DNA of 45,931 nt from a virus: positions 1 to 45,931 of IMG/VR virus record IMGVR_UViG_3300049212_000020. The stretch is one strand, 5' to 3'. Positions 15,792 to 37,499 of the stretch are shown in pieces (the first letter of the stretch is position 1; the number at the start of each line of letters is the position of its first letter). The notes beneath the pieces were generated by a model. That model was given only the letters and a program-made list of their open reading frames with translations, did no database searches and had not been told where the DNA came from. A program made the translations under genes and the position numbers.

Positions 15792-16006
15792 TGCCACATC
15801 CAGTTGTTAAGGCCAAGGCCGAGACCGAGGGACGGCCACTCGCGTGCGGATTGGGACGAGCTTGAGGACGGCAGGTCTTCCGTGACGTACGGCGTGCCGC
15901 GGGCGACGTAATCGAGCGACTTGGTGTCGGCAGTCGAGAAGTCCGCGTACGGACGACCGCGCGAGACGTAGTCCAGCGTCAGCTGATTGGTTTGCGTGAT
16001 CGCCAC
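15788..16006 (-). CDS. Small protein with two copies of LDYVxRGxPY
   Basis: A 72-residue protein of unknown function. It contains two copies of a ten-residue motif (LDYVSRGRPY and LDYVARGTPY) about 21 residues apart, then a serine run and a Gly/Leu-rich C-terminus ending in WMWQ. The start is inferred to be GTG at 16006, one base inside the TAG stop of the upstream gene (TAGTG), with no clear ribosome site; an in-frame ATG at 16060 inside that gene is the alternative. The stop overlaps the portal start (ATGA). It may be a minor virion or adaptor peptide; this is a guess. Confidence 0.55.
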   Translation of the reverse strand: MAITQTNQLTLDYVSRGRPYADFSTADTKSLDYVARGTPYVTEDLPSSSSSQSAREWPSLGLGLGLNNWMWQ

Positions 16007-18741: not shown

Positions 18742-19542
18742 TTACCTCGTCAGCCCAGAGGCGCGGCATTCGACCCAATCAGCAAGCATTTCGCGCTCGG
18801 TGTTGCCTGCGGTTTTGGCGATCTTGAGAATCGGACAGCAGAACTTCCCGTCGACTGGAATGTTGGTCGCTATGGTTCCCTTGGAGACGTTATCGATAAA
18901 GAACTCCACTGATGTCTGAGCCGCATTCACGACGAAACGCATCTTGTACCACGTGCTCGCGACGAAGCTCAGGCCGGTGTCGATCGCAGTACGCGAACCG
19001 CTATTCGCGCACTTCCCTTCCCACTTGCCGCTGTTGGTGCCGTGGGCGTAGCGGAAGTAGATGCCGTTGGACTGATCGGTGGCGCCGGTGAGCTGATCCC
19101 CCCACCCGGCATACAGCGCATAGGACGTGGTGCCGTCAGAGGCAGCGTCCGGGGTCATGATCGACCATTCGCACGACATGCCGCCGTGCGCCTCCAGGCC
19201 TACTTCCAGATGCGATATGCACCCGGTGTTTGTCCCGGACAGCGTGGTTCCGCTGTTCACGCGAACGATGCCGTAGCGCCCTGGATAAGAGACGCTGTAC
19301 TTCGGACCGACCAAACCGCTGGCGATGGTCTTCGTCCACCCAGCCACCGAGCCGCCGGTAGCGTCCGAGCAGTTGATGAAGTCGTCGATGAACACGAAAT
19401 CGGTCTCGCGGTCCGCCTCGCCAATGACGCCGAGCGCAGTCCTAGCAGCCGATGCTGACGTGGACGCAGTCCCGCCTTGAGCGATAGACAGCGGCAGCGA
19501 TACGCTCCCCGATTCAGACCCAGCAGCGCCGTAGATCGGCAT
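18742..19542 (-). CDS. Fiber protein with concanavalin-like (lectin/glucanase) domain
   Basis: A 266-residue protein. The first ~40 residues carry the fiber-like IAQGGT.STSASAARTALG motif; the rest resembles a concanavalin A-like beta sandwich, with the WYKMRFVVNA / VEFFIDNV strand pair (about residues 203-225) typical of LamG/ConA-type folds. The likely role is carbohydrate binding on the tail fiber. ATG 19542 is three bases after the preceding stop. Confidence 0.65.
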   Translation of the reverse strand: MPIYGAAGSESGSVSLPLSIAQGGTASTSASAARTALGVIGEADRETDFVFIDDFINCSDATGGSVAGWTKTIASGLVGPKYSVSYPGRYGIVRVNSGTTLSGTNTGCISHLEVGLEAHGGMSCEWSIMTPDAASDGTTSYALYAGWGDQLTGATDQSNGIYFRYAHGTNSGKWEGKCANSGSRTAIDTGLSFVASTWYKMRFVVNAAQTSVEFFIDNVSKGTIATNIPVDGKFCCPILKIAKTAGNTEREMLADWVECRASGLTR

Positions 19543-21673: not shown

Positions 21674-24229
21674 CTAGTTGCGGATACGGCGCTTAGAGAA
21701 GATAGCACTCGTTAACCTTGCCGAACGGATCAACTGTAACTGATAGTTCTCTTGGTCCTGGGTCAGCGCTTCGACCGGCGGTGGGACCGGGGGCGGTGGT
21801 TTCTCAGGAGTCAGCCAGCCCGGCTTCCCGCAGCCGCGAGGCACGTAGACCAGGCGGGTCCGACCGCCGTTCAAGCCCATGCACAGGTAGCGCAGGCAGT
21901 TGTGAACCAGGACGCCGTTGGCGAAGAACTCGTGCTCCCCCTCAACGGTCAGGTCGTGGACGTGAGCGCTGCCGGATGGTGCGACGAGTCGCACAGACGC
22001 GGGAACAGGTGAGCTTTCGCAGGTACTTGTTCTTCGTGAACGTCTTCCCGCACTCAACACAGGTTGCTGGGACATCGTCGACGCCCGAAAGATGGCGCGC
22101 TCTGGACTTGCAATATCCCGAACAGAACTTCGGCTTCCTGTCCCTGGTCTTGAACGGCTTCCCGCATCGCTGGCACTGGTATTCACGCGCTGTGCGCTTC
22201 TTCCAAATGTCCTTGCTATGCTCGACGTGCCACGCCCGGCCTTCGGGTGATCGATGCCAAGCGACTGCCAACCCCCTGATGGCATCCAGGTGGTCGAGTT
22301 TGCCTCCACCGTGCATGCGGCTGTGCTCTGAGGGGGAGATGGCTTCGAGATTGTCGAGAGAGTTGTTCCGGCAATTCCCGTCTCGGTGGTGAATCGCGCA
22401 GCCTTCCGGGATTGGTCCGTGTGCTGATTCCCATATTGCCCGATGCAGCAGCTTTCCTCGGCGGTTTCTGAAGTACCCAGCATTGGCGCCGCTGTACTCG
22501 TAGTACTTTCGCCCCTCGAATACGACGATGTTAGGCATGTCGCGACTATATCCGAGTACCGCAAGCTATCAAGGCGAGCCCAGCCCCGATTCTCGGTCCA
22601 GAACCGATGGCCTGCGGTGGCGGTTACGGCGTGACCATTCGAGGTCTCGACGGTGAACACCGGCTTGGGAGCCGTCGAGCGCCACGCATCAGTGACACGC
22701 CGATAGCCCTTCCGGGTCAGCACCATGTCGCCCACCGCGATGTCCTCAATCGGGCGGGGCCCCGTAGCGGTTTCGATCAGGGTGCCGCTCACAAGGCAGT
22801 CTGGCCCCTCGTCGTCTTTCTTCACCACCCCGCGCGCACCCTGGTAGACGCCCTCCTCGTACGAGCGGTAGGACAGCATCTGCTGCCTCAGGAGCTGCCC
22901 CCCGGATGCCTTCGAGGCGTTGATCTTGATGAGGCCATCATCGAGGTACGTCTGCACGCGGCGGATGCCGGGCTCGTGGCGGTTGTAGGGCAGGATGATG
23001 CCGCGGTAGGACTTGATCTCCTGCCGGGCCATCTCCTCCTTCATCTGCCAGGACAACGACTTGCCGGTGGTCTTCTCGGTCTTGTTCGAGGCGATGTCGG
23101 GGATGAAGCCCTCCAGCGTGCGCCCGCGCAGGTAGTGGGCGATGCGCTTGAAGTCGTAGGACAGGATCGTCCGGTTCATCCGGATGAAGTGCACGACCTT
23201 GATGAGGGTCGGCTGATCCTTCGAGATCGCGGCGAACAGGATGCCGGTGTCGTGCGACTCTTGGCCAGCGCCGCCCGGATCGTAGGCGCACCACAGGTTG
23301 TCATCCGGATGCACCTCGTAATCCGGCGCGATCATCACCCGCTGATCGTCCCAATGCTTGCCGTAGATCAGCAGCCGATCGGCATAATCCACGGTTCCGA
23401 GCATGCGCAGGTCGAAGTCTTCGTCCGAGAACGCACCGCGCAGGCGTTCGCGCTCGCGCTTGTCGGCCGCATCGCCATCCGCTTCCCCCATGCGGAAGCC
23501 TTCCCAGTCCGGCTCCTTGGGATCCTCGCAGGTCTGGATGAAGCGCATCAGGGCGACGTTGGCGGTCGTTGGGGTTGCGCCCCACAGCAGCCATCCGCCC
23601 CCCGCCTCGCGCACGATCTGCTCGTCCTTGTTGGCGTCGAGCAGGCGCGGGTAGAGCTCGTTGAGCAGGTTCAGGTCGCCCTCGGCCTCGTCCAAGATGA
23701 TCCAGGACAGGGCCTGGCCGGCGCGGCGTTTCCACGATTCGGGGTCTTTCGAGACGCCGAAACGGATGGTGTTCCCGTTCTTCATGTCGATCTGCTTGAG
23801 GGTCGGAGCGCCCGCGCCGTGCGTGTACCAGACCTTGGCGATCTCCTGGGCGGGGATGAACGGTCGACCCTCGAATCCGCGCAGCTCGCAGTCCTTCAGG
23901 AGCTTCTTCTCCCACGGATCCTGCAGCTGCTCGCGCGACGGCGCCAAAATCAGGCCGGTGGTGGGCTTCGAGACGGTGCGGGTCGGGTGGAGCCGCCTGG
24001 CTGCCGACGCGGCCTCGACGCCCAGGAGCGCCGACTTGCCCTTGCGGTTGGCGCCACCGATCCAGCGGTAGCGGGCCTTAGAGACGTAGCAACGATGCTG
24101 CGTCGGCCAGGGCGTGAAGTTGAGCACCGGGTCCAGCCGTCGCTGGATCAGGTAGTCCAGCTCATCTTCGTCAACGTTGGAGTTCGATTTCAACCGGTTT
24201 CGCCTGGAGGATTTGGTCGATCTGTTCAA
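21674..24229 (-). CDS. terL: Terminase large subunit, interrupted by an intein
   Basis: An 851-residue precursor; without the intein (residues 478-777) the terminase is 551 residues, normal length. The ATPase domain has a Walker A-like GGANRKGKS (residues 58-66) and Walker B IILDEAEGD (177-185). The RuvC-like nuclease begins at about 311, with D317 in AYDPGG. The intein sits between D477 and C778 in the DEGPD|CLRY motif, the site of a late catalytic aspartate of the nuclease. It cuts and packages DNA into procapsids with the small subunit and portal. The ATG at 24229 overlaps the small subunit by 59 bp; a TTG at residue 13 behind GGAGG is an alternative start. Confidence 0.85.
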   Translation of the reverse strand: MNRSTKSSRRNRLKSNSNVDEDELDYLIQRRLDPVLNFTPWPTQHRCYVSKARYRWIGGANRKGKSALLGVEAASAARRLHPTRTVSKPTTGLILAPSREQLQDPWEKKLLKDCELRGFEGRPFIPAQEIAKVWYTHGAGAPTLKQIDMKNGNTIRFGVSKDPESWKRRAGQALSWIILDEAEGDLNLLNELYPRLLDANKDEQIVREAGGGWLLWGATPTTANVALMRFIQTCEDPKEPDWEGFRMGEADGDAADKRERERLRGAFSDEDFDLRMLGTVDYADRLLIYGKHWDDQRVMIAPDYEVHPDDNLWCAYDPGGAGQESHDTGILFAAISKDQPTLIKVVHFIRMNRTILSYDFKRIAHYLRGRTLEGFIPDIASNKTEKTTGKSLSWQMKEEMARQEIKSYRGIILPYNRHEPGIRRVQTYLDDGLIKINASKASGGQLLRQQMLSYRSYEEGVYQGARGVVKKDDEGPDCLVSGTLIETATGPRPIEDIAVGDMVLTRKGYRRVTDAWRSTAPKPVFTVETSNGHAVTATAGHRFWTENRGWARLDSLRYSDIVATCLTSSYSRGESTTSTAAPMLGTSETAEESCCIGQYGNQHTDQSRKAARFTTETGIAGTTLSTISKPSPPQSTAACTVEANSTTWMPSGGWQSLGIDHPKAGRGTSSIARTFGRSAQRVNTSASDAGSRSRPGTGSRSSVRDIASPERAIFRASTMSQQPVLSAGRRSRRTSTCESSPVPASVRLVAPSGSAHVHDLTVEGEHEFFANGVLVHNCLRYLCMGLNGGRTRLVYVPRGCGKPGWLTPEKPPPPVPPPVEALTQDQENYQLQLIRSARLTSAIFSKRRIRN
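21899..22798 (-). mobile_element. Intein in terminase large subunit
   Basis: A 300-residue intein (TerL residues 478-777). Block A begins with C478 (CLVSGTLIETATGPRPIEDI), block B contains TATAGHRFWTENRGW (about residues 536-550), block F is VHDLTVEGEHEFF and block G ends VLVHN with C778 as the first extein residue. These are all residues needed for class-1 splicing. Between blocks B and F, about 195 residues are Ser/Thr/Arg-rich without any LAGLIDADG or HNH motif in this frame; the same DNA encodes an HNH endonuclease in a different frame (21942-22538). Insertion in a catalytic motif of a conserved enzyme is typical for inteins. Confidence 0.9.
21942..22538 (-). CDS. HNH homing endonuclease nested in the intein, other frame
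   Basis: A 198-residue protein on the same strand as TerL but in a different frame, wholly inside the intein. Residues ~25-76 are an HNH homing endonuclease domain: H50-H51, N59, N63 and H72 in the IHHRDGNCRNNSLDNLEAI context. Two C-terminal zinc ribbons follow (C122/C125/C139/C143 and C160/C163/C178/C182). Its ATG lies just after the intein's block B region; its TGA falls inside the codons for block F (TVE). The last ~9 residues (arginine/proline-rich) are an out-of-frame reading of the intein C-terminus. The ribosome site is weak. It would cut intein-free terminase genes to promote copying of the element (inference). Confidence 0.85.
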   Translation of the reverse strand: MPNIVVFEGRKYYEYSGANAGYFRNRRGKLLHRAIWESAHGPIPEGCAIHHRDGNCRNNSLDNLEAISPSEHSRMHGGGKLDHLDAIRGLAVAWHRSPEGRAWHVEHSKDIWKKRTAREYQCQRCGKPFKTRDRKPKFCSGYCKSRARHLSGVDDVPATCVECGKTFTKNKYLRKLTCSRVCATRRTIRQRSRPRPDR

Positions 24230-24842: not shown

Positions 24843-26465
24843 ATGCAAACAGCGTTGGCTGATCCCCTGGCAGACTGCCGCACCTGCGCCAGTACGTTGA
24901 TCGTGATCGGGTTGGGTGTTGGGGGCCTGATCGAACGGATCGCGTCGGACCGGATGCTGAACACGAAAGACGTGCGCATTCTGTCCCTGCCGGGGGAGAC
25001 GGCACCGACCGGTGAGCTGCCGAAGAACATCATCATCACCATCGTCAACGACTACGTCGGCGTGCAGCAGTGGATCTGGGATTCATTCGGCGCGCACGAG
25101 TCGATCATCAAGCTGGCCGGTGCTGACATCGTCGACACACACGAGCTGTGCCCGCAAGCGGAAGCGTTCCGCGCCGAGCATCTGCCGCGCATCCGTAACG
25201 CGCTCGCTGATCGGCCGTGGGCGCTGGGTAACGACATCAACGACACCTTCATGGGATTGCACCATGCAGCACTTAACGCGCGAACTATCCTTCCATGTCC
25301 ATCAATTGGAAACGTGTCGGGCGTCTTTGGTCCAACTCCGGCAATCGCTATCGGAGCTGGACCGTCAGTTGGCGAACATCTTGACGCACTACGAGCTTTG
25401 CAAACCAAGTGCATCCTCGTCGCCTGTGACGCCGTCTACCCCGGCCTCATCGCAGCAGGCATCGTCCCGCACTTCGTGACGCCCTTAGAGCGCCTCAAGC
25501 AGCAAGCCCAATTCGTAGCCTGCGCCAAGGGCACGCGCACGATCTTCGCCGGCATTCCCGCCTGCCATCCATCGGTAGTCGAGCCCTTCGACGGCAAATG
25601 CATCTACCTGCACGCGATGGACCGGCTGTACAACTGGCTCGCACCCGCTGAGGAACTGGTCTGCACCACTGGTTCCTCGACCGGGGTTCTCTCATTTCTC
25701 GTTGCCGCCTCGCTCACGCGCGGGCCGGTCTATCTGGTTGGACACGATCTGGCAAAGGGAGCCAATGGGACGCACTGGCAAGCCTGCGACTTCGCGGCGA
25801 AAGCGCATGAGCACGAAACCAACAACGTCGGATCCTTCGGTGCCAACGGCTACGAAACCCGTTTTGTCCCTGGAAATGACGGCACGCTGGTCGAATCCTG
25901 CATGTGGTGGGACACCTTCCGCTTCGAGATCAGCTCGCAAGCCAAGCTCATCAGGGACAGGGTCTTCAACGTCAACGCGCACACCAAGCGATACGCCGTT
26001 ATCGAGCACACCCAATCTGGGCCACTCCCAGATCCGGCTTCTCTCAACGACCTTCCCGAAATCCGTCTGGAGCGGGGGCATGCGGTGCGGTATGACAGCT
26101 GGAAGGCTCGCGCAGCCCAGCTGCCTGCCGACTGCGAGCACTTCAAGCGACACATGGGCGAGCTGCGTACAGACCTGCGCGCAATGTGGGCGCAAGCACC
26201 GCACGCATGGAATCTTGACACCCTACTGTCGCGTATGCTCCCGGATGCTGGAGTTAGTCCGGGCAATCAGGCAGCCTTCCAGTACTTCCTCCGCAGCGCG
26301 GTCTACAACGAGCAGATGTACATGCACGCGCGCTCGCGGACGTACCAAGTCAAAGAGCAAGCGTACTGGCACACGATGCTCTCGCTCGACGGCCTCGCGG
26401 CGACGATGACGAGCGCCATCGACCACCTGCAACCGGTTCTGGAGGCCATCGCCCGTGACTGCTGA
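24843..26465 (+). CDS. Maf/DUF115-type glycosyltransferase
   Basis: A 540-residue protein resembling DUF115 / motility-associated factor (Maf) proteins. The diagnostic part is at about residues 170-215: AIAIGAGPSVGEHL followed by an (I)LVACDAVYPGLIAAGIVPHF stretch, the GxGPS nucleotide-binding signature of the family. Bacterial Maf proteins attach nonulosonic acids (pseudaminic, legionaminic) from CMP-sugars to Ser/Thr of flagellin. A phage copy beside terminase, in a genome with a cytidylyltransferase-amidotransferase sugar cassette, suggests O-glycosylation of a virion or surface protein. No ribosome site precedes ATG 24843; the mRNA may be nearly leaderless, or a downstream TTG/GTG is used. 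The more distant MptE relatives are an alternative. Confidence 0.7.
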   Translation: MQTALADPLADCRTCASTLIVIGLGVGGLIERIASDRMLNTKDVRILSLPGETAPTGELPKNIIITIVNDYVGVQQWIWDSFGAHESIIKLAGADIVDTHELCPQAEAFRAEHLPRIRNALADRPWALGNDINDTFMGLHHAALNARTILPCPSIGNVSGVFGPTPAIAIGAGPSVGEHLDALRALQTKCILVACDAVYPGLIAAGIVPHFVTPLERLKQQAQFVACAKGTRTIFAGIPACHPSVVEPFDGKCIYLHAMDRLYNWLAPAEELVCTTGSSTGVLSFLVAASLTRGPVYLVGHDLAKGANGTHWQACDFAAKAHEHETNNVGSFGANGYETRFVPGNDGTLVESCMWWDTFRFEISSQAKLIRDRVFNVNAHTKRYAVIEHTQSGPLPDPASLNDLPEIRLERGHAVRYDSWKARAAQLPADCEHFKRHMGELRTDLRAMWAQAPHAWNLDTLLSRMLPDAGVSPGNQAAFQYFLRSAVYNEQMYMHARSRTYQVKEQAYWHTMLSLDGLAATMTSAIDHLQPVLEAIARDC

Positions 26466-27933: not shown

Positions 27934-28212
27934 TCAGCCCGAGTTCTCCACAACATCTGCATCATTCTTACTGGTGTAGGGCTTGCGCCAGGGTTTGAGG
28001 CCGAGCAGCTCGTCGGTCGAGCATTTCAGCGTCTTAGCCAGGATGATCAGCCTCGGCAGCGTCGGCAGGTGCTTGCCGGTCTCGTAGTGGTTCACCATAC
28101 CGATGGTGCATTGCAGCTTGTCCATCAGCTCACCAGGTCCGATGCCTAGCTCGGTTCTGCGCTCCTTGATGCGCTGTCCCACAATCTTCGCTAGGTCATC
28201 GTCCTTCATCAT
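27934..28212 (-). CDS. XRE-family HTH regulator
   Basis: A 92-residue protein with a Cro/CI helix-turn-helix at about residues 10-65 (GQRIKERRTELGIGPGELM, then the TIGMVNHYETGKHLPT recognition segment and LIILAKTLKCSTDELLGL). The C-terminus is short, so it is a DNA-binding domain only. Two ATAG-N5-CTAT operators lie just upstream (28242-28254 and 28274-28290), one inside the promoter of the divergent gene at 28368; autoregulation and control of that gene are likely. It is a second regulator, separate from the repressor at 44331. Confidence 0.85.
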   Translation of the reverse strand: MMKDDDLAKIVGQRIKERRTELGIGPGELMDKLQCTIGMVNHYETGKHLPTLPRLIILAKTLKCSTDELLGLKPWRKPYTSKNDADVVENSG

Positions 28213-28367: not shown

Positions 28368-28601
28368 ATGGACCCACAGTCTCCAACCACCTACTACCTG
28401 TGCAACCCCGTCCGCCGGTACGTGCTCGCACCCTGGCCAGGCCGTGAGGACATGGTGCTCCTGCACGATGTCTGCGACGAGTTAACCATGCCCCTCTATG
28501 CCGTCCGCAAGAAGGACGTTGCCGCCATGTACGAGGAGATCGTTGCCCTCGGTAAGCGCCACGGCTTCTATGTCGAGGGCATCGGTGGCTCAGCCCACTA
28601 G
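28368..28601 (+). CDS. Small hypothetical protein under XRE control
   Basis: A 77-residue protein with a good AAGGAG ribosome site before ATG 28368. No family recognised; composition is that of a small soluble alpha/beta protein. It is transcribed from the operator-bearing promoter at 28265-28293 and converges on the last gene of the early operon, overlapping it by 12 bp. It might be an antirepressor or other switch effector; nothing in the sequence confirms this. Confidence 0.65.
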   Translation: MDPQSPTTYYLCNPVRRYVLAPWPGREDMVLLHDVCDELTMPLYAVRKKDVAAMYEEIVALGKRHGFYVEGIGGSAH

Positions 28602-29891
28602 CCCCTTCTCCTCCCACGCCTTCACATACCGCCACACCTGCTGAAACGGTAGGTCGTGGCGGTTGGCTATCTCTAGGACGCTCAAGCCCAGCTCATCCCG
28701 ATGCCCAAAGTACAGCGGCAGGCAATCCATCAGGTTGTTCCATCGCCTCGCCTCATCGCTGATCGTGCGCCTGTCAGGCATCGATGGATCCAACATAGGC
28801 TTGTAGAGGTCGATTCCCGGCCTACTGAGGCACACCAGGCCCCTAAACTTCCGTTGGTGCCGCTTGTCCTTGTCCATGTTCGATAGGGCCTCTACGGTCA
28901 CGGAAACGGCTTCCCTGAGGCGCTGCTCGTCCATCAGGTCTGCGGTATCGTGGCTGGTATGGTACTCACTAAAGGGAACCCGACTCAGGCTCACGGTAGC
29001 GATCTCATACCCTGCTGAATCCCAGCACGTCTCATCGTTGCCGACAACGCTCCTGAACGGTGCCTCCCTCCATGGGAACCCGGAGTCCTTCAGGGCTCGC
29101 ACGTAATACTGATCAATTGGTGCATCCCCTGTGAAGCTGTGCTGCAGGGCTAGGGGGCCTTGAGTACCCAGGCTCTCCAAGAACACCCCGCTATGCAGCT
29201 TGGTGTCCTGGAAGCGGTCCAGGTAGAAGATCGAGTGATAGTGCTCAGGTCCTATGATGAGCCTGTAGCCCAGCTCAGCCTCCTGGGTCATCAGCTGCCG
29301 CATCACCTCGATACCAATGGCCACGCCTGACAAGTCATCGTTGGCACAGCCCGGATGGCAGTTGTGGGCATTGATGAGGATATCGATGTCCTGCTTACCC
29401 GGCTTATGGAACTCCAACACCTTCATGGTGCCTGGCGTCTTGGTCGTCCTCAGCTCGATGTGGTATGCCTCACGGTCCTTGATGCTGTCATAGAACCGCT
29501 TGGTGACTGAGAACCCCCAGTCCTTGACCCAGTTCTTATACAGCCAGTCACAGTGGTAGATCAGCGCGTCATCGTACTCGGCACTGTAGTACAGGTGCTT
29601 CTTCAACTCCTCGCCACCAATGCCTGCAACGAATGGCTCGCTGTAGGCGCAGACTCCCAGCGGATGAGCGTTGCCGTCGTAGATCAGGTTGCCTGCGTTG
29701 TCGTGGATCGTGGCCTTCTGGCATTCCCACTTCTGCGGGAGCACCCAGCCATTGACCTCTGAGCCTGACTCAAACTCATGCACCTGGAACGGTAGCTCCT
29801 GGCACAGCAGCTCAGTCACCTTGTCCAAGCCATCGCACACAACGCCGCTGCGATAGGGGCTCAGCTTGCGGATCAGATCAACCATCGACAT
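28590..29891 (-). CDS. DUF4910 aminopeptidase-like protein (sugar cassette)
   Basis: A 433-residue DUF4910-type protein, a family found in polysaccharide and flagellin-modification loci with an M28-like zinc-peptidase fold. Visible metal-site candidates are H176, H179 and D185/D186 (INAHNCHPGCANDDLSG), an EHYHS segment near 215 and a GNDETCWDSAG segment near 280. The last ~50 residues look like a winged helix (LGLSVLEIANRHDLPFQQVWRYV). The reaction of the family is not established. ATG 29891 has a GGAGA ribosome site and overlaps the upstream stop by 14 bp. It is the last gene of the ~15.6-kb early operon. Confidence 0.8.
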   Translation of the reverse strand: MSMVDLIRKLSPYRSGVVCDGLDKVTELLCQELPFQVHEFESGSEVNGWVLPQKWECQKATIHDNAGNLIYDGNAHPLGVCAYSEPFVAGIGGEELKKHLYYSAEYDDALIYHCDWLYKNWVKDWGFSVTKRFYDSIKDREAYHIELRTTKTPGTMKVLEFHKPGKQDIDILINAHNCHPGCANDDLSGVAIGIEVMRQLMTQEAELGYRLIIGPEHYHSIFYLDRFQDTKLHSGVFLESLGTQGPLALQHSFTGDAPIDQYYVRALKDSGFPWREAPFRSVVGNDETCWDSAGYEIATVSLSRVPFSEYHTSHDTADLMDEQRLREAVSVTVEALSNMDKDKRHQRKFRGLVCLSRPGIDLYKPMLDPSMPDRRTISDEARRWNNLMDCLPLYFGHRDELGLSVLEIANRHDLPFQQVWRYVKAWEEKGLVG

Positions 29892-31446
29892 AGGCCGTCT
29901 CCAAGCACGAGAACCATACGTGTCCTTCCCACCCGTTCTTCCCCTTCAGCTGGTCATGCCAGATGCCATCGCATTCATAGCCTGCCTTCCTCAGCGCCTT
30001 GCAGCTGCCGACGTTGGACTCGTACGCACCAGCATGGATGCGGTGCAGCTTCAGCTCCTGGAACGCCAGCTTGGTCGCTAGTCGTATCGCTTCAGTGGCG
30101 AAGCCTCGACCCCATAGCTTCTTCTCGCCAATAAAGTATCCAACGTCTGCGTATCGGTGATGCCAGTTAATGCCACCCACCTTAATGTTGCCGATGTGAG
30201 TTCCGGACTCGTTCTCAAATATGCCCAGCAGATGGTTGGATTCGCTCCGCTGCATTCCCGAGACGAATCTCCTGATGCCGTCGAGCGTCTGGACATGAAA
30301 GCGTGACTCCAAGTACTGGTTGATCTCTGGGTCATTAAGCCAGTCCACATACCGCTCGGTGCAATCGCTGAGCGTTAGTGGACGCAGGCGCACCTTCTTG
30401 CCCTTGATGGTGAGCGTGGGCTTAGCTGGCGTATCCACGCCCATCGCCGTGTACTCAGGCGTATAGGTGATCGCTTGATGCAGCCGCTCGGGGCTGGTGA
30501 CAAACCGCATCCCAGGCCTCAGCTCCTTGTTGATCACCTTCCCATCGCACCACACCTCAGCGACCAGGACCGTGCCCGTATGGCTGGCGACAGTGATCTC
30601 GTCCTTGCTGATGCGTACAATCAGCCCATTGGCGTACGGGTGGAACGCGCCGTCGATCGAATCAGAACACCGCAGCTGCACCGTGCGCCCATTGATGGTC
30701 GTATGCGCCCCTGGATAGGGCTGGTCGAACGCATTGATGAAGTTGGCGATCTCGACTGAGCCCCAGTTCCAGTTCACCCACCCGTTCTCGCTGGTCTTGA
30801 GCCTCGGGAAGTACAGCGAGTCCTTCTCGGCAATGTCGCCAGGCAGGAAGATCGCGCCCTTCCTGATGGCGAGTAGGAACTCCTGGATCATCTCCAGCTC
30901 TTGCTTGCCGCAGTCCTCGAACCAGTGATCGGGATAGATCGCGGTGTAGCCCATGTCGTACGCCCGCTGCATGACGATAGCGCCGTTGTCGTACACACCC
31001 TGCTTGGTCTGTGGCGTCACCTGCTGCAGGCAGCAACCCCATTTGATCTCGCCATTCATAATCGCCCAGGTGTAGTGCGCTCCTCCACGGTAGCGTGGCA
31101 GTGGGATGCCCATCACATCGATCAGGCGCCCACCGAAGACATCCACGATCTCCGGGCTGAACTGCCAGGCTTCACCCAACCCAAGGCCCAGCGTGGTGGG
31201 CGTGATCTCCTCAAGCCCCAAGTCCCGATTGATGTCGTCGGTGACGTGGTACCAGTCCATGCCCGCTGCGACCAGATGCTGGCCAAGCGTCAGCTCGCCA
31301 TCGATCACCTCGGCCTCCTGCCGTGGGCTGGTGTAGATGTCCACATGCAGGTTCAGCTCTCTGAGGAGCTTCGCGACCTTGATCAGCAGCGGTGAGCCAC
31401 CGAACAGCATGACGTGGTCAGGATAGGGGATGGTCAGCGTGGTCAT
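29878..31446 (-). CDS. Formyltransferase-like / GNAT acetyltransferase fusion
   Basis: A 522-residue fusion. Residues ~1-215 resemble the N-terminal formyltransferase domain and ~220-310 its C-terminal barrel (methionyl-tRNA formyltransferase type, used also on sugar amines). Residues ~350-520 are a RimJ/RimL-type GNAT N-acetyltransferase (RLRPLTLSDC start, WGRGFATEAI acetyl-CoA loop). In the formyltransferase active site the usual Asn and His (N-x-H before PxLPRYRG) are replaced by D110 and M112, while the later Asp (D153 in YDNGAI) remains. It may therefore be catalytically altered. ATG 31446 overlaps the HisF-like stop (ATGA). Its likely role is N-acylation of an amino sugar. Confidence 0.8.
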   Translation of the reverse strand: MTTLTIPYPDHVMLFGGSPLLIKVAKLLRELNLHVDIYTSPRQEAEVIDGELTLGQHLVAAGMDWYHVTDDINRDLGLEEITPTTLGLGLGEAWQFSPEIVDVFGGRLIDVMGIPLPRYRGGAHYTWAIMNGEIKWGCCLQQVTPQTKQGVYDNGAIVMQRAYDMGYTAIYPDHWFEDCGKQELEMIQEFLLAIRKGAIFLPGDIAEKDSLYFPRLKTSENGWVNWNWGSVEIANFINAFDQPYPGAHTTINGRTVQLRCSDSIDGAFHPYANGLIVRISKDEITVASHTGTVLVAEVWCDGKVINKELRPGMRFVTSPERLHQAITYTPEYTAMGVDTPAKPTLTIKGKKVRLRPLTLSDCTERYVDWLNDPEINQYLESRFHVQTLDGIRRFVSGMQRSESNHLLGIFENESGTHIGNIKVGGINWHHRYADVGYFIGEKKLWGRGFATEAIRLATKLAFQELKLHRIHAGAYESNVGSCKALRKAGYECDGIWHDQLKGKNGWEGHVWFSCLETAYVDG

Positions 31447-32117
31447 CCATACCTCACGGGAATGCCCTTGTTGCGCAAATAGGCTCGCGCACGCAGGGGG
31501 TTCGAATCGGTGAAACAGAACATGGCTCCAGATGCACACGCATCAGCGCCAGCGTTGAAGGCGTCGACCATGTGCTGGTAGTGACCACAGCCACCCATGG
31601 CGATGATCGGGCACTTCAGGCTCTTTCGGACGTTGCTGATGGTCTGCACATCGTAGCCCTTGCGGATGCCATCGCGGTCCGTGGCATGCAGCACCACTTC
31701 CCCAGCGCCCATGTCCCCGAGCTCCTTAACGGGCTCGGCGTAGTCGTAGCACCACACCACAGCCTGTTGCCCGAAGTGCTCGGCAATCGCCGGGATCAGC
31801 TGGTACATGGTCCGGATCACCACCTTCTCAGCGCCGGCCTTGATCAGCGTGGCCGCATCCTCCTCGGTCCTGATCCCACCACCCACGGCCACGGGGATAA
31901 AGCACACCTTGCCGATCTCCTCGATGACATCGAGCAGGGGCTGGACGCCCTTGTCAGGCTGGATGTTCAGGATCATCAGCTCGTCAGCGCCGTTGTTGTT
32001 GTGGATCCTCGCTTGCGACACCGGATCACCCACATCTCTGGGGTTGGCGAACTGCGTGGTCTTCACCACACGGCCGTCCTTCAGCAGCATGACTGGGATC
32101 ACACGCTTTTTGAGCAT
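31443..32117 (-). CDS. HisF-like protein of sugar amidation (WbuZ type)
   Basis: A 224-residue (beta/alpha)8 protein aligned without gaps to the start of HisF (MLxKRxI...KDGRVVK) but shorter than histidine HisF (~250). The catalytic aspartate at HisF position 11 is L11 here, while the second one is kept as D147 (ATDRDG). Loss of D11 makes a histidine-pathway role unlikely and matches HisF homologs of O-antigen loci that pass ammonia to an N-acetyl sugar amidotransferase. The amidotransferase is the gene directly upstream, overlapping by 19 bp. The usual glutaminase partner HisH is missing. Confidence 0.85.
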   Translation of the reverse strand: MLKKRVIPVMLLKDGRVVKTTQFANPRDVGDPVSQARIHNNNGADELMILNIQPDKGVQPLLDVIEEIGKVCFIPVAVGGGIRTEEDAATLIKAGAEKVVIRTMYQLIPAIAEHFGQQAVVWCYDYAEPVKELGDMGAGEVVLHATDRDGIRKGYDVQTISNVRKSLKCPIIAMGGCGHYQHMVDAFNAGADACASGAMFCFTDSNPLRARAYLRNKGIPVRYG

Positions 32118-33256
32118 TCCCGATACCAGCTATCCCTGTCATGGGTTGGTTCTGCATCAGGCAGGTTGAAGTCTGGCTCGTGAGGGTAGATAGCGTGCTG
32201 TGCAACGATGGTGTTGAACTCAGCCTCGGAGATACCGACGTAGTCTAGGAAGATGTCGAGCGATGGCGGACGGCGCCCCTCATTGGCTGCGATCACAGCC
32301 CGCGCCTCCTCGGTAGTCATGCGCCCGTTGCGGATGTCGATGGCGCAGTTCTGGGACACACGCGAGTACCCGCGCTTGAGAAACTTGAGGTAGTCGCGAA
32401 CGCCCTGCATTGCGCATTCAACCTTATCGTAGGTCCAACGTCCGCTCGGCATGCCCTCCACAGCGTCACCCTTCCATCCAAGCTCTTGCTCGATGATCTT
32501 CACCTGCTCACGCACATCCCACTTGATGAACGATCCCAGGCACACAGACCTAACGCCCAGCTTCTGTAGCTCTGAGCGCGGCGGGTACTGGAACGGCTTG
32601 AGATCACGGTAGTCAAAGTCGAAGTCGTGCTTGATCATCCCAGCTATGTCGTCGGCCGTGATACCGAGGTTGATGAACCGGTTGAACCGTGTCTCGTCTA
32701 CGTTCTCCTCTTCATCGTAGCCGAAGTACGACGTGTAGTCGCTGGACCGTTCACCCCAGAAGATCAGCGGCACCTGAAACTTCAGGGCTATGTGCATCGG
32801 GAACGAAAATACACCTACGTGACACGACCAGCAGAAATCGGATTTGCGGATCAGCGCCTCAAGCATGGTCCGCTTCACCAGTTTCCAGTTGGCAGTGAAT
32901 GAGAGCGAGTCCACCCCTAGGCGCTTGATCGTCCGCTCCATATTCTTGTTCACGCCGTCGCGCATGAACCCGTGATCGTAGCGGACCACGAGCGGCTTGA
33001 TCTTGTAGTTCGTGACGAGGTACCAGAGGGCGAAGGTTGAGTCCTTCCCACCACTGAACGGAATAATGCAGTCGTAGTCGTGTCTGCCTCGGTACTGCTC
33101 GATCAGCGCGTCCAGGTCCTTCTTCTTGGCGTCCCAATCATCTGCTTCCTTGCGCTCGTGAGCCCTGCAGATGTTGCATACGCCGTCATGGCCAATCTCT
33201 AGCGTCTCGTAGGTGATAGGGAGCAGGCACCGGGCGCAGCGTTCCATGTCGTTCAT
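32099..33256 (-). CDS. N-acetyl sugar amidotransferase (WbpG/PseA family)
   Basis: A 385-residue PP-loop ATPase: SGGKDS at residues 68-73, with an N-terminal zinc-type cysteine set (C7, C10, C27, C30). This is the family that converts an N-acetyl group on a sugar or nonulosonic acid to an acetamidino group, using ammonia delivered by a HisF-like partner, encoded next. I start at ATG 33256, which overlaps the upstream stop (ATGA) behind GAGG, not at the GTG two codons earlier. Known relatives: WbpG (O-antigen), PseA and LegX-type (flagellin glycan). The exact substrate is not deducible. Confidence 0.87.
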   Translation of the reverse strand: MNDMERCARCLLPITYETLEIGHDGVCNICRAHERKEADDWDAKKKDLDALIEQYRGRHDYDCIIPFSGGKDSTFALWYLVTNYKIKPLVVRYDHGFMRDGVNKNMERTIKRLGVDSLSFTANWKLVKRTMLEALIRKSDFCWSCHVGVFSFPMHIALKFQVPLIFWGERSSDYTSYFGYDEEENVDETRFNRFINLGITADDIAGMIKHDFDFDYRDLKPFQYPPRSELQKLGVRSVCLGSFIKWDVREQVKIIEQELGWKGDAVEGMPSGRWTYDKVECAMQGVRDYLKFLKRGYSRVSQNCAIDIRNGRMTTEEARAVIAANEGRRPPSLDIFLDYVGISEAEFNTIVAQHAIYPHEPDFNLPDAEPTHDRDSWYRECSKSV

Positions 33257-34068
33257 GCCCACGTCCTCGGGTCGTTGTCTGTGCAGACGCCCATGTCGAG
33301 CATCGGTACGTACCGCTCGGTCCCCAGCGGTTCACGCTTGGCTATCTCTAGGCACTCATCCAGCTCGCTGATGGTGGTCGGCCCGATGATCACCATGTCC
33401 GTGGTCTCGTTCTCTAGTCCCGAGCGAAGGGCTAGTGTCTTGAGGTTTACACCGAATGCTGCGGCGACCTTCTCTGCCGCCTGGACACGCTGCTTGAGGG
33501 TATCGTTGGGGCATTCCTCGCCCGCTAGGACGCCCTGAAGCAGGGCGCTGCGCGCAATCCGTGTCTGCTTGGGGGCCCTTGCTTCAGGTCCATACCGGTA
33601 TGGATAGGGTGCATAGCACCTGCGCAGAATGTTCCATTCGTGCTGGATGTAGTCGAAGTGGATGAACGCTGCCGTCGCGCTGTCGCTGTCGTCGTGTTCG
33701 AAGTAGATCGATGCGCCACGGATCCAGTTGGCCGGCCAGCCGATGTGCCTGGTCCAGTTGTGGTAGAGGAACACCACATCCGCACGCTTCGGGTCGCCCC
33801 GCAGCAGATGCTGAATGCTCTGCGCCGCCTCAGCGACATCGCCACGTGTCTTCGTGAAGATGCGCGCAGAAAGATTGTTGCACTTGAGCACGTGCCCAAT
33901 GATGTTCTCGGCCTGGCCGTAGGTTGGGGCGGTGTCGAAGGTCCGAATGCCAGCGTCCCACGCATGCTTGATGAGCGCGATGGCATCCTCGGTGTTGACC
34001 TCACGCTTGTTGCGCCCATACGGCAATCCCCCCAGCCCAGCCGTCCCCAGGATCAGTTTCTCAATCAC
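33253..34068 (-). CDS. Aldo/keto reductase (sugar cassette)
   Basis: A 271-residue AKR-family oxidoreductase: catalytic tetrad candidates D45 and Y50 (FDTAPTYG), K73 (FTKTRGD) and H103 (LYHNW). Shorter than the usual ~310, as seen in AKRs of sugar and flagellin loci. The start is GTG 34068, one base inside the TAG of the aminotransferase (TAGTG), preceded by a perfect AGGAGG at 34074-34079 with five-base spacing; the in-frame ATG at 34104 lies inside the aminotransferase and is less likely. It probably reduces a keto-sugar or aldehyde intermediate with NAD(P)H. Confidence 0.85.
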   Translation of the reverse strand: MIEKLILGTAGLGGLPYGRNKREVNTEDAIALIKHAWDAGIRTFDTAPTYGQAENIIGHVLKCNNLSARIFTKTRGDVAEAAQSIQHLLRGDPKRADVVFLYHNWTRHIGWPANWIRGASIYFEHDDSDSATAAFIHFDYIQHEWNILRRCYAPYPYRYGPEARAPKQTRIARSALLQGVLAGEECPNDTLKQRVQAAEKVAAAFGVNLKTLALRSGLENETTDMVIIGPTTISELDECLEIAKREPLGTERYVPMLDMGVCTDNDPRTWA

Positions 34069-35291
34069 TAGTGCCTCCTGAACACAGCAGTGTTGATCTT
34101 GCACTCCAACCGCTTCTCGACCGAGTGATCGCTGATCGCCTCAGCGACAACGGCCATGGCGTCGTCGTAGGCCTTCATGGTCTGCTCCATGGCGTCCATG
34201 TGGTGCGACAGGCTGATGAACTGCCCCGATGCCAGCATGACCCCACGGCGCAGTAGCTCCTGGATGAACAGGGTCTGCCGGGCCGGGTTGTCCCATTCGA
34301 TACTGGTGTAGTGCGGTAGGCCGCGCATCCGGGTGTGGTCGGTGAGGTTGTGCGTGGTCGCAGCCTTGGTGTAGCCGTCGATCAGCGACTGCCCCACCAC
34401 CGCCTGGTTGTCCCAGAACCAACCATCCTCCATCTGCTCCAGGTTGTAGAGCGCCGCCTTCATCGCCGTGACTTCTGCGAAGTGCGTCCCCGACAGATGG
34501 GTCTCGCTCCAGCAGTCCATGATGTCCTTGCGCCCGCAGACCAGGCTGATGGGCCAGCCGTTGGCCAGAGCCTTGCCTGCCGTCGTCAGGTGCGGCGTGA
34601 CGTTGTACACCTGCTGCGCTCCACCCGGCGCCATGCGGAACATGGTGATCGTCTCGTCGAAGATCAGGACCGTCCCGGTATCCTCACAGAGCTTCAGCAC
34701 CCGCGGAAGGTACCAGTCATACGGCGCCGTCAGCGATACCGGCTCCAGGATGAACGCTGCCACATTCTTGTAGAGCAGGTGGTCCTCTAAGGACTCCATG
34801 TCGTTGTAGGGCACGGAGACGGTCAGGTCCCGCACGCACTGTGGTACGCCCTTCTTGTCGGCGTAGTCGGCATTCAGGAACACGTCCTGGTAGCCGTGGT
34901 AGCCGCAGCGGACGATCTTCTCGCGTCCCGTGTACGCACGCGCCAGACGCACCGCTGCACTGGTCGCATCAGTTCCCGTCTTCATGAAGCGCACGGCCTC
35001 ACAGGACGGGATCATCGACTGCACCTTCTCAGCCAGCTCGACCTCAGTCCACGACGGCAACGGCCATGCGATGCAGTCGCCAGACAAGCCGCGCTTGTGT
35101 CCCAGCGTGATCGCGCCCAGGCCCATGGTCCAATCGATGTACCACTTGCCATCAGAGCCCAGCACGCGGCATCCGTCACCGTCCATGATGAACTCGGGGC
35201 CAAATCCATCGCAGTAGCGGTAGCGGCCCTTGCTGCTGACCTGAGTCCCCATCGGGACCAAGCGGTCGTGCCGCTCGCGCATCGTCGTCAT
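34068..35291 (-). CDS. Class III aminotransferase (GSA-aminomutase-like)
   Basis: A 407-residue PLP enzyme of the glutamate-1-semialdehyde aminomutase/class III group: FDETITMFR at residues 211-219 (D212 contacts the pyridine), PLP lysine K240 in TAGKALANGWP, and the phosphate-binding TGTDAT at 105-110. Members of this subgroup recur next to SpsF-like cytidylyltransferases and AKRs in surface-glycan loci, where they aminate or isomerise a sugar intermediate; the haem-pathway role is unlikely in a phage. ATG 35291 overlaps the upstream stop by one base (TGATG). Confidence 0.85.
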   Translation of the reverse strand: MTTMRERHDRLVPMGTQVSSKGRYRYCDGFGPEFIMDGDGCRVLGSDGKWYIDWTMGLGAITLGHKRGLSGDCIAWPLPSWTEVELAEKVQSMIPSCEAVRFMKTGTDATSAAVRLARAYTGREKIVRCGYHGYQDVFLNADYADKKGVPQCVRDLTVSVPYNDMESLEDHLLYKNVAAFILEPVSLTAPYDWYLPRVLKLCEDTGTVLIFDETITMFRMAPGGAQQVYNVTPHLTTAGKALANGWPISLVCGRKDIMDCWSETHLSGTHFAEVTAMKAALYNLEQMEDGWFWDNQAVVGQSLIDGYTKAATTHNLTDHTRMRGLPHYTSIEWDNPARQTLFIQELLRRGVMLASGQFISLSHHMDAMEQTMKAYDDAMAVVAEAISDHSVEKRLECKINTAVFRRH

Positions 35292-36031
35292 CACTGCAAC
35301 GCCTCCATGTACTTGCGCCATCCTGCATTCACCCCGCACTTGCGGATTAGTTCAGCGCACCGCGCCAGGTCTGCTGGCGTATCGACTGAGAATTTGACGT
35401 TCTCCGTGGAACAGTACGACGGGTTAATGAAACCATTCATGCACTCGCGCATGTAGGTGGTCACATGTTCGCGCTGCCGTTGTTCTTTCGCCATCTCGTT
35501 TGAGCGCATGAGTGCATCGTAGCTAAATACCTCCACGTCCGATCCATCCGGATCATTCGTCTGGCCAACGTAGGCCATGCCGCTGCGGCGGAACGTCTGA
35601 AATAGCTCACCAATCAGCCAATGGTCAACGAGCGGGCAGTCACCGGTGATGCGGACAATGCCAGCCGTCGCGCCGTATTGAGCGAATGCCCACGTTGCTG
35701 CGTCCGAGAATCGCCTGAGCACATCCGACTCATTACCGCGGAACAAACGCACTGGGATTCGGAGTCGCGCCACCTGCCTGAGAAGGAGGCCATTCGCTAC
35801 GTCGTTCTTGTCTAAGCGCTCGAAGAGAGTCGGTTCATTCTCGATGTGGTGCGCAAGCGGGACGTTCTCTGGAGTGTCGGGAATGGCTACCACAACCAAC
35901 CTCGGGCCCGAATCCAGCACCCGATCAATCACATGCTCAATCACCGGCTTCCCACACAGATCCGCCAGCATCTTCCCCGGAAATCGCTTCGATCCCATGC
36001 GGGCCTGGATGATGACCGTTGCGTCAATCAT
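35291..36031 (-). CDS. SpsF-like cytidylyltransferase
   Basis: A 246-residue nucleotidyltransferase of the CMP-sugar synthetase/SpsF family: N-terminal ATVIIQARMGSKRFPGKM (residues 4-21), ITGDCPLVD around residue 120, and a VKFSVDTPADLA segment near the C-terminus. It would activate an acidic sugar as CMP-sugar for transfer. Start ATG 36031 overlaps the upstream stop (ATGA); an in-frame ATG at 36097 lies inside the upstream gene and encodes a non-conserved extension. It is the first enzyme gene of the sugar cassette. Confidence 0.88.
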   Translation of the reverse strand: MIDATVIIQARMGSKRFPGKMLADLCGKPVIEHVIDRVLDSGPRLVVVAIPDTPENVPLAHHIENEPTLFERLDKNDVANGLLLRQVARLRIPVRLFRGNESDVLRRFSDAATWAFAQYGATAGIVRITGDCPLVDHWLIGELFQTFRRSGMAYVGQTNDPDGSDVEVFSYDALMRSNEMAKEQRQREHVTTYMRECMNGFINPSYCSTENVKFSVDTPADLARCAELIRKCGVNAGWRKYMEALQ

Positions 36032-36466: not shown

Positions 36467-36889
36467 TCATGCCAACTTCCCCACCCCCGCCCCCTTGCCG
36501 TCGATGGCTGAGCTGTGGTAGATCGCCAGCATCTTGTCCCCGATGGCTTTCAGCGTATCGCGCTGCGCCTTGGACGGGCTGTCATAGATGATGCCGATGA
36601 GCGACAGCGTCCACTCGTTCAGCAGTGAGCGCGGTATGCACACATGGTCTGCGGGGATGGCGTGGAGAGCTTTGGCGGCTTCCTCTGCTGCGCGTTGAAT
36701 TGATTCTACGCACGATTCGCCGTGAGAGTCATTAGACCAGTCTTCGGTATTGTGATAGGCTTTCCCTGCTCCTGCTACCATGCCTAGAATGGCATCGATT
36801 GGTGCGCAGCCTGTTGGCTCGAAACTGTAATAGTACGCACAGAGATCAGCCTTTGGCTCCCGCAGCGCGTCGGGTGGTTGGGGGGTCAT
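36467..36889 (-). CDS. Hypothetical protein after the repeat gene
   Basis: A 140-residue protein starting at ATG 36889 within ATGA overlap of the Gly-rich repeat gene. A longer in-frame opening into the repeat would give only Arg/Leu/Gln strings and is not credible. The protein is mixed alpha/beta with Cys-containing N-terminal part (LCAYYYSFEPTGC) and a helical C-terminus. No family recognised; typical small early phage gene. Confidence 0.7.
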   Translation of the reverse strand: MTPQPPDALREPKADLCAYYYSFEPTGCAPIDAILGMVAGAGKAYHNTEDWSNDSHGESCVESIQRAAEEAAKALHAIPADHVCIPRSLLNEWTLSLIGIIYDSPSKAQRDTLKAIGDKMLAIYHSSAIDGKGAGVGKLA

Positions 36890-37200
36890 GATCTGCGCCT
36901 TCGACCTGATAGCGTGACAGTGCCGTAGCCGTTGCCGTTGCCGTAGCCGTAGCCGTTGCCGTCGCCGTTGCCGTAGCCGTAGCCGTAGCCGTAGCCGTCG
37001 CCGTAGCCGTCGCCGTTGCCGTAGCCGTTGCCGTCGCCGTTGCCGTAGCCGTAGCCGTAGCCGTAGCCGTCGCCGTAGCCGTCGCCGTAGCCGTTGCCGT
37101 AGCCGTCGCCGTAGCCGTCGCCGTTGCCGTAGCCGTAGCCGTCGCCGTAGCCGTAGCCGTTGCCGTCGCCGGTGCCGTTGCCGTTGCCGACAGGCTTCAT
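36886..37200 (-). CDS. Gly-(Tyr/Asn/Asp) repeat protein
   Basis: A 104-residue protein. After MKPV, about 87 residues alternate glycine with Tyr, Asn or Asp (GNG, GDG, GYG units); a short TVTLSGRRRRS tail follows. Both ends overlap neighbouring genes by ATGA (start 37200 in the stop of 37197-37499, stop in the start of 36889), which is strong evidence that this frame is translated. Such Gly/aromatic low-complexity chains can be disordered, aggregate or phase-separate; the Arg tail could bind nucleic acid. No homolog or function is recognised. Confidence 0.7.
   Translation of the reverse strand: MKPVGNGNGTGDGNGYGYGDGYGYGNGDGYGDGYGNGYGDGYGDGYGYGYGYGNGDGNGYGNGDGYGDGYGYGYGYGNGDGNGYGYGNGNGYGTVTLSGRRRRS
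36922..37189. repeat. Hexanucleotide tandem repeat GCCGT(A/T/C)
   Basis: About 268 bp of six-base units that vary only at one codon-position base (GCCGTA, GCCGTT, GCCGTC on the plus strand), encoding Gly-Tyr, Gly-Asn and Gly-Asp on the minus strand. A larger unit of 72 bp is duplicated in tandem: 36946-37016 equals 37018-37088 (71 bases). Unit gains or losses stay in frame. Confidence 0.9.
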
Positions 37201-37499
37201 GCCAAGCCCCAATCATCGGCAACCGGAATGCGGAAGATTTCCGCTTCGGCTGGAATGTCCACTGGCGTGTCCATCTTACGGATCGTCACCTTGTCAGATT
37301 TCGGCTTGGCAATGACGCCATCGAAGCCAACCGATTCCCACCGAAATACCCATACAGCGCGAGTCAGGGTGATGCGTCCGTTGGCTTCTGCTACGTCACC
37401 TGCGAATATCCAGCCACGGTCAACGACCACGACGGCCCGTTTCCCGTTCGGCTGTTCACGGCGATAGGTCACGCCGTCAATGGTTACTGAATCCTTCAT
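37197..37499 (-). CDS. Hypothetical early protein
   Basis: A 100-residue predicted beta-rich protein (VTIDGVTYRRE, VVVVDRGWIFAGDV, AVWVFRW strands). No family recognised. ATGA overlaps both neighbours. Likely an accessory early gene. Confidence 0.7.
   Translation of the reverse strand: MKDSVTIDGVTYRREQPNGKRAVVVVDRGWIFAGDVAEANGRITLTRAVWVFRWESVGFDGVIAKPKSDKVTIRKMDTPVDIPAEAEIFRIPVADDWGLA

Follow-up and report, generated by a model that had tools for sequence, protein, structure and literature searches.

IMG/VR virus record IMGVR_UViG_3300049212_000020 was analysed over its entire length of 45,931 bases (the window). It contains a cassette of seven intact minus-strand genes at 28590-36031 (Table 1), whose families were assigned by Pfam and NCBIfam profile searches. 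The open reading frames (ORFs) and the junction sequences confirm the layout described in an earlier sequence-only reading of this DNA. Each of the six junctions within the cassette is an overlap, and the first gene is joined in the same manner to the upstream phage gene, through an ATGA (4 bases, at 36031). The internal overlaps are TGATG (1 base) at 35291, TAGTG (1 base) at 34068, ATGA (4 bases) at 33256, 19 bases at 32117, ATGA (4 bases) at 31446 and 14 (or 8) bases at 29891/29885. No internal promoter or terminator pattern in the cassette rose above chance. The GC content (0.59) and the GC content at third codon positions (GC3, 0.68-0.85) are within or near the range of the remaining phage genes. 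The cassette lies downstream of a Sak4-like gene on the same strand, in agreement with its previous description as part of an early operon, although the earliness itself is suggested only by position.

Table 1. Positions of the cassette genes and of other features in the window
Feature	Position	Strand	Remarks
Cytidylyltransferase, SpsF/CTP_transf_3 type, 246 residues	35291-36031	-	CTP_transf_3 1.1e-25; ATG start at 36031
Class III pyridoxal phosphate aminotransferase, 407 residues	34068-35291	-	Aminotran_3 9.2e-37; glutamate-1-semialdehyde-aminomutase-like 3.1e-82
Aldo/keto reductase, 271 residues	33253-34068	-	Aldo_ket_red 5.3e-19
N-acetyl sugar amidotransferase, WbuX/WbpG family	32099-33256	-	2.1e-96, 323 bits (cut-off 203)
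HisF/WbuZ-like barrel, 224 residues	31443-32117	-	His_biosynth/WbuZ 2.4e-60
Formyltransferase-fold and GNAT N-acyltransferase fusion	29878-31446	-	Formyl_trans_C 2.1e-13, GNAT 1.2e-24; single ORF
DUF4910/DUF2172 protein, M28-like aminopeptidase fold	28590-29891	-	DUF4910 1.9e-45; 3k9t match 5.9e-39
Upstream phage gene, 135 residues	36028-36435	-	Stop overlaps first start of cassette via ATGA; no family above cut-off
Maf/PseD-like (MptE/DUF115) putative glycosyltransferase	24843-26465	+	PseD domain 6.8e-19; 5mu5 3.1e-6
ORF, 81 residues	26455-26700	+	Overlaps end of Maf-like gene
ORF, 223 residues	26697-27368	+	ATGA-coupled
HTH_3 repressor-like protein	27934-28212	-	Between Maf-like operon and cassette
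Terminase gene	21674-24229	-	Contains intein (Intein_splicing 2.9e-12)
HNH endonuclease ORF, 198 residues	21942-22538	-	HNH_3 4.2e-17
GCCGTA tandem array	36922-37189		45 copies, 87% matches; within 36467-37222
Structural-region protein	18742-19542		Lectin-like SO2946 C-terminal domain, 3.3e-12
Structural-region protein	16006-17994		Weak right-handed beta helix

Profile matches support all seven family names proposed earlier, and characteristic residues are widely retained. The cytidylyltransferase keeps an N-terminal QARMGSKRFPGK-type motif, the aminotransferase the conserved Lys240, the aldo/keto reductase D45, Y50, K73 and H103, WbuX the PP-loop SGGKDS and four N-terminal cysteines, and the DUF4910 protein conserved His, Asp and Glu residues. 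Two of the names need qualification: the HisF-like protein is unusually short (224 residues), and the formyltransferase-fold domain reads DVMG at the site of NVHG in E. coli Fmt, so that the canonical catalytic Asn-x-His motif is replaced. Most of the 13 bacterial homologues of this domain taken from WbuX loci also lack the His, while one (L085) has NAHG. Because the phage domain and most of its bacterial homologues deviate from the motif, this subfamily probably has a function different from classical formyl transfer, and N-formylation by the cassette is not supported by its sequence.

Comparison with bacterial genomes provided insights into the origin of the cassette. WbuX is the most suitable anchor, and its 80 top-ranking relatives from bacteria are up to 64% identical to the phage protein; their loci, all picked for having WbuX, span at most 10 kb on each side and are often cut by contig ends. 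HisH is found in 72 of the 80 loci, HisF in 70, an aminotransferase and NeuB in 59 each, a match to the formyltransferase/GNAT query in 58, a cytidylyltransferase in 53, DUF4910 in 16 and an aldo/keto reductase in 9. The genes of one locus (L017) are ordered cytidylyltransferase, class III aminotransferase, aldo/keto reductase, WbuX, HisH, HisF, GNAT, and those of another (L074) cytidylyltransferase, class III aminotransferase, WbuX, HisH, HisF, formyltransferase, GNAT, DUF4910. Combined, the two reproduce the phage order, except that the phage has no HisH and its formyltransferase and GNAT domains are fused. A similar gene set with NeuB forms the Legionella pneumophila serogroup 6 O-antigen locus (PMC3694923), and non-1 serogroups of this species bear an acetamidino nonulosonic acid (NulO), according to a reference cited in that paper. 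The locus and the phage have in common a cytidylyltransferase, a glutamate-1-semialdehyde-type aminotransferase, an aldo/keto reductase, HisF and an acyltransferase. The phage differs from such loci in having no NeuB, HisH, DegT or CapD-type dehydratase, a fused formyltransferase/GNAT protein and a shortened HisF. The survey and the published locus bear out the claim that these families occur together in bacterial NulO and amidated-sugar loci. Since bacterial WbuX neighbourhoods hold the same families in the same order, the cassette appears to be transplanted machinery of a bacterial NulO locus. We consider the chances slightly in favour of its being a set for NulO tailoring and activation with cytidine monophosphate (CMP), taken from such a locus, compacted in the phage and acting on a host product, either a NulO or its precursor, formed with the host's own NeuB.

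What the phage lacks is equally informative. Two profile searches of the whole record found no NeuB. The phage ORFs that were scanned also included no dehydratase, DegT aminotransferase or NeuC/PseG. To our knowledge, this phage has no route from UDP-N-acetylglucosamine to a NulO. Because NeuB, HisH and the other backbone enzymes were not found, the phage is unable to build the sugar backbone. The proposal in the sequence-only reading that it builds the sugar is therefore not supported in this form; at most, it tailors and activates a precursor from the host. The absence of NeuB would also fit a substrate other than a NulO, such as an amino sugar linked to UDP or CMP, or a small acid whose synthesis needs no NeuB, for which the phage set would be self-sufficient. 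The SpsF-type cytidylyltransferase resembles CMP-NulO synthetases only remotely (PseF match, 2e-6), and amidation of the WbuX type also takes place on non-NulO sugars, as in the WbpG system of P. aeruginosa. We nevertheless find such a substrate rather improbable. Among the 21 bacterial loci without NeuB, a strong copy lies elsewhere in 16 of the genomes, weak matches only are found in 3 and none in 2, which brings strong NeuB, in the locus or the genome, to 75 of the 80 WbuX bacteria. Moreover, EpaA ties a protein with CTP_transf_3 and aldo/keto reductase domains to NulO (PMC12053666).

EpaA is a prophage-encoded fusion of these two domains which, with EpaB, edits host-made pseudaminic acid in Acinetobacter baumannii (PMC12053666). 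By analogy, the EpaA/EpaB pair is the nearest functional precedent for the cassette, including its dependence on a host-made NulO. Judged by the described domains of EpaA, both systems are phage-borne, combine CTP_transf_3 and aldo/keto reductase domains and have no NeuB. EpaA/EpaB consists of two genes and the cassette of seven, in which the two EpaA domains are separate genes. The cassette goes beyond the pair with amidation, a class III aminotransferase, acyl editing and a Maf-like protein. No cassette protein matches the SDR (short-chain dehydrogenase/reductase) family of EpaB; the other phage ORFs were partly scanned for it. A precedent for acyl editing is Cj1295, an aminopeptidase-like protein of the Campylobacter flagellin locus and apparently of the same type as the DUF4910 protein; the family named for it in the published work is PIRSF015244. 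It is needed for di-O-methylglyceroyl pseudaminic acid and was proposed to cleave the C5 acetamido group (PMC3068675). Like Cj1295, the DUF4910 protein is aminopeptidase-like, has no signal peptide and is encoded in a NulO cluster, in this case a phage-borne one. It is thus a candidate N-acyl-sugar deacylase, and by analogy could cleave a C5-type acyl group that the GNAT domain would replace.

From these families we infer a series of reactions for the tailoring of a host-made NulO. The DUF4910 protein would strip an N-acyl group, and GNAT, possibly together with the formyltransferase-fold domain, would add a different acyl group. WbuX and the short HisF would turn an N-acetyl into an acetamidino group. 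The aldo/keto reductase and the class III aminotransferase would alter a ring or side-chain carbon by epimerisation or amination; our guess is that the aminotransferase aminates a keto sugar made by the reductase. The cytidylyltransferase is predicted to activate the NulO-type product, yielding the CMP sugar. The phage Maf-like protein or a host transferase would then put the altered sugar on a virion protein, flagellin or the cell surface, where it could alter what other phages or host defences recognise.

The Maf-like protein bears on where the sugar goes. The PseD and 5mu5 matches support the description of the gene at 24843 as Maf-like, and the best Foldseek match of its model is again 5mu5, a Magnetospirillum Maf (5.6e-7), although the model is of low confidence (mean pLDDT 51). 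Maf transferases move CMP-NulOs onto proteins and can be donor-promiscuous (PMC11339370). The phage protein apparently shares the MptE/DUF115 core with the Maf/PseD flagellin glycosyltransferases, which are its best match in both sequence and fold, but it is related to them only distantly and encoded in a separate operon. The earlier suggestion that the phage attaches the sugar depends on this protein only. No flagellin gene was recognised in the phage. An attempt to predict the host from the Maf-like protein was abandoned, since its matches in 385 genomes of one bacterial class were all distant.

The same tailoring could instead serve a NulO polysaccharide of the host, lipopolysaccharide or capsule, to which host transferases would add the sugar; the receptor of the infected or lysogenic cell would be changed, rival phages excluded and the Maf-like protein unrelated. 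EpaA/EpaB prophages act without a phage transferase (PMC12053666). The closest plasmid amidotransferase locus (L002) is located among polysaccharide genes, Maf-like genes are rare in the bacterial loci (3 of 80), and the HTH repressor-like gene could indicate a temperate or persistent lifestyle. However, no tyrosine integrase was found in the record, and the Maf-like gene matches PseD and Maf best. We consider this alternative less probable, but not remote. Protein glycosylation and surface conversion may both be possible.

Several observations weigh against NulO tailoring with transfer by the Maf-like protein. With no NeuB, HisH or other backbone enzyme found in the record, function would hinge on the host. 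The formyltransferase-fold domain has lost its canonical motif. The Maf-like protein is only 16-24% identical in alignment to the bacterial relatives found, and its gene is on the opposite strand from the cassette. In addition, the cassette is known from the genes of one genome alone.

The HisF-like protein provided further insights into the amidation step. It has 224 residues, compared with 251-270 in about 70 bacterial counterparts, and among the matches listed from 289 genomes of one class no HisF frame is that short, except for one fragment at a contig end. About 25 residues are missing after barrel strand 5 (the beta-alpha-5 loop), and a few more after strand 4. The profile match is split at the loop deletion and scores 204 bits, against an equivalog cut-off of 300. 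Nevertheless, an AlphaFold2 model shows a confident eight-stranded barrel (pLDDT 90.9), for which BFVD contained no close viral relative. Arg5, Glu46, Lys98 and Glu140 (phage numbering), which we take to be the ammonia-gate positions of imidazole glycerol phosphate synthase, are retained. No HisH was found in the whole record by two profile searches, including TIGR01855; a weak HisH-profile match on the HisF ORF (1.3e-4) was dismissed since the TIGR01855 search finds no HisH.

A second group of IMG/VR phages (L005-L010 and L012), not related to the window phage, also combines WbuX with a shortened HisF (216-217 residues, the same loop gone). HisH is absent from these records except L009, in which it accompanies the short HisF. 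The group differs from the phage in the window in having its own NeuB and most of a legionaminic-type pathway, and its WbuX is of a different branch: in the WbuX tree it groups, with full support, with a Rhodobacteraceae plasmid locus, and the window phage lies on the other main branch. The two WbuX genes were therefore separate acquisitions. We tentatively infer that HisF was trimmed convergently in two phage lineages. A HisF tree was set aside as evidence on shared ancestry of the short forms, since the phage sequence joined a long branch (V_L011) and its placement was unreliable. The occurrence of short HisF without HisH in the window phage and in most of the second group hints at HisH-independent amidation. 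It is conceivable, if rather doubtful, that phages evolved at least twice an amidation by WbuX and trimmed HisF that uses ammonia directly or from a host glutaminase, and that here it serves a tailoring set editing a host sialic-acid-like sugar, which the phage Maf-like transferase attaches to a viral or host protein.

The records of the second group are genuine phages (TerL 6e-98, portal 1e-33); L012:10004-19696 is an example, and large terminase (TerL), portal and capsid genes are present in L094-L096. Their near-complete legionaminic-type pathway comprises a 4,6-dehydratase-like protein, a DegT aminotransferase, a hexapeptide acyltransferase, NeuC, NeuB, a cytidylyltransferase and an SDR, along with WbuX and the short HisF. 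Between WbuX and HisF, at the position of the bacterial HisH, the group has an ORF of 181-191 residues with a signal-peptide-like start (MKKLLIA...), located at L005:3086-3661, L007:11128-11673, L008:11128-11676, L009:6849-7394 and L012:11131-11676. The L005 copy has no Pfam match.

Such gene sets are uncommon in phages. Searches of 50,697 phage records found no relative of WbuX, the DUF4910 protein, the Maf-like protein, the cytidylyltransferase or the aldo/keto reductase, and scans of IMG/VR, made with a few short peptide patterns and not exhaustive, returned no close relative of the phage WbuX. Aminotransferase matches in ‘phage’ records were dismissed, as many of these records are bacterial genomes or unannotated fragments. 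The earlier statement that these families are not normally found in phage genomes is thus broadly supported by the large set of records, with the EpaA/EpaB prophages (PMC12053666) and the other IMG/VR phages with related sets as exceptions. The T4-like cyanophages P-SSM2 and S-SSM7 also carry lipopolysaccharide gene clusters, of unproven role (PMC3037559). These are multi-gene sugar sets in genomes of 232-252 kb, compared with 46 kb here, and NulO amidation genes are not shown there.

The scarcity of phage relatives would be expected if the cassette had no role in infection: it could be cargo, recently captured or in decay, or the product of a chimeric assembly with a bacterial contig. We regard this as very improbable. 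The seven ORFs are intact and their catalytic residues retained, the first is ATGA-coupled to a phage gene, GC3 is in the phage-gene range, and the gene fusion and compaction suggest selection. The final 126 bases of the record duplicate bases 15-140. This overlap of the ends fits a complete assembly and points to a genome that is complete and either circular or circularly permuted, although the record carries no such flag. Phage genes of the record include those for the large terminase (phrog_2, 5.5e-16), the major head protein (1.1e-15), tail proteins and the Sak4-like annealing protein. IMG/VR scans with WbuX, the Maf-like protein, the capsid protein and TerL found no close relative of the phage; one distant TerL match (L093) was obtained. 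Searches of phage records by tblastn with the connector-like and TerL proteins returned nothing close.

NulO editing by phages is already known from a two-gene prophage pair that alters capsule structure. If the proposed tailoring of a host NulO is correct, these seven translationally coupled genes in a 46-kb phage, with their amidation and acyl exchange, would show that almost all of the tailoring part of a bacterial surface-sugar pathway can be phage-borne, with the backbone coming from the host. Host NulO production would then be a testable determinant of phage fitness, and the cassette would offer compact enzymes for producing amidated or re-acylated sialic-like sugars. The recurrent HisH loss and HisF trimming provide a test of the ammonia source of the amidotransferase.

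Other features of the genome were noted. The HNH endonuclease ORF lies inside the interior of the terminase intein in another reading frame, while the in-frame intein interior appears to be of low complexity. The GCCGTA hexamer array is just upstream of the 135-residue gene coupled to the cassette; one of its minus-strand frames is a Gly/Tyr-rich repeat and another is Arg/Leu-rich. The two structural-region proteins with a lectin-like domain and a weak beta-helix match are candidate receptor-binding or depolymerising parts.

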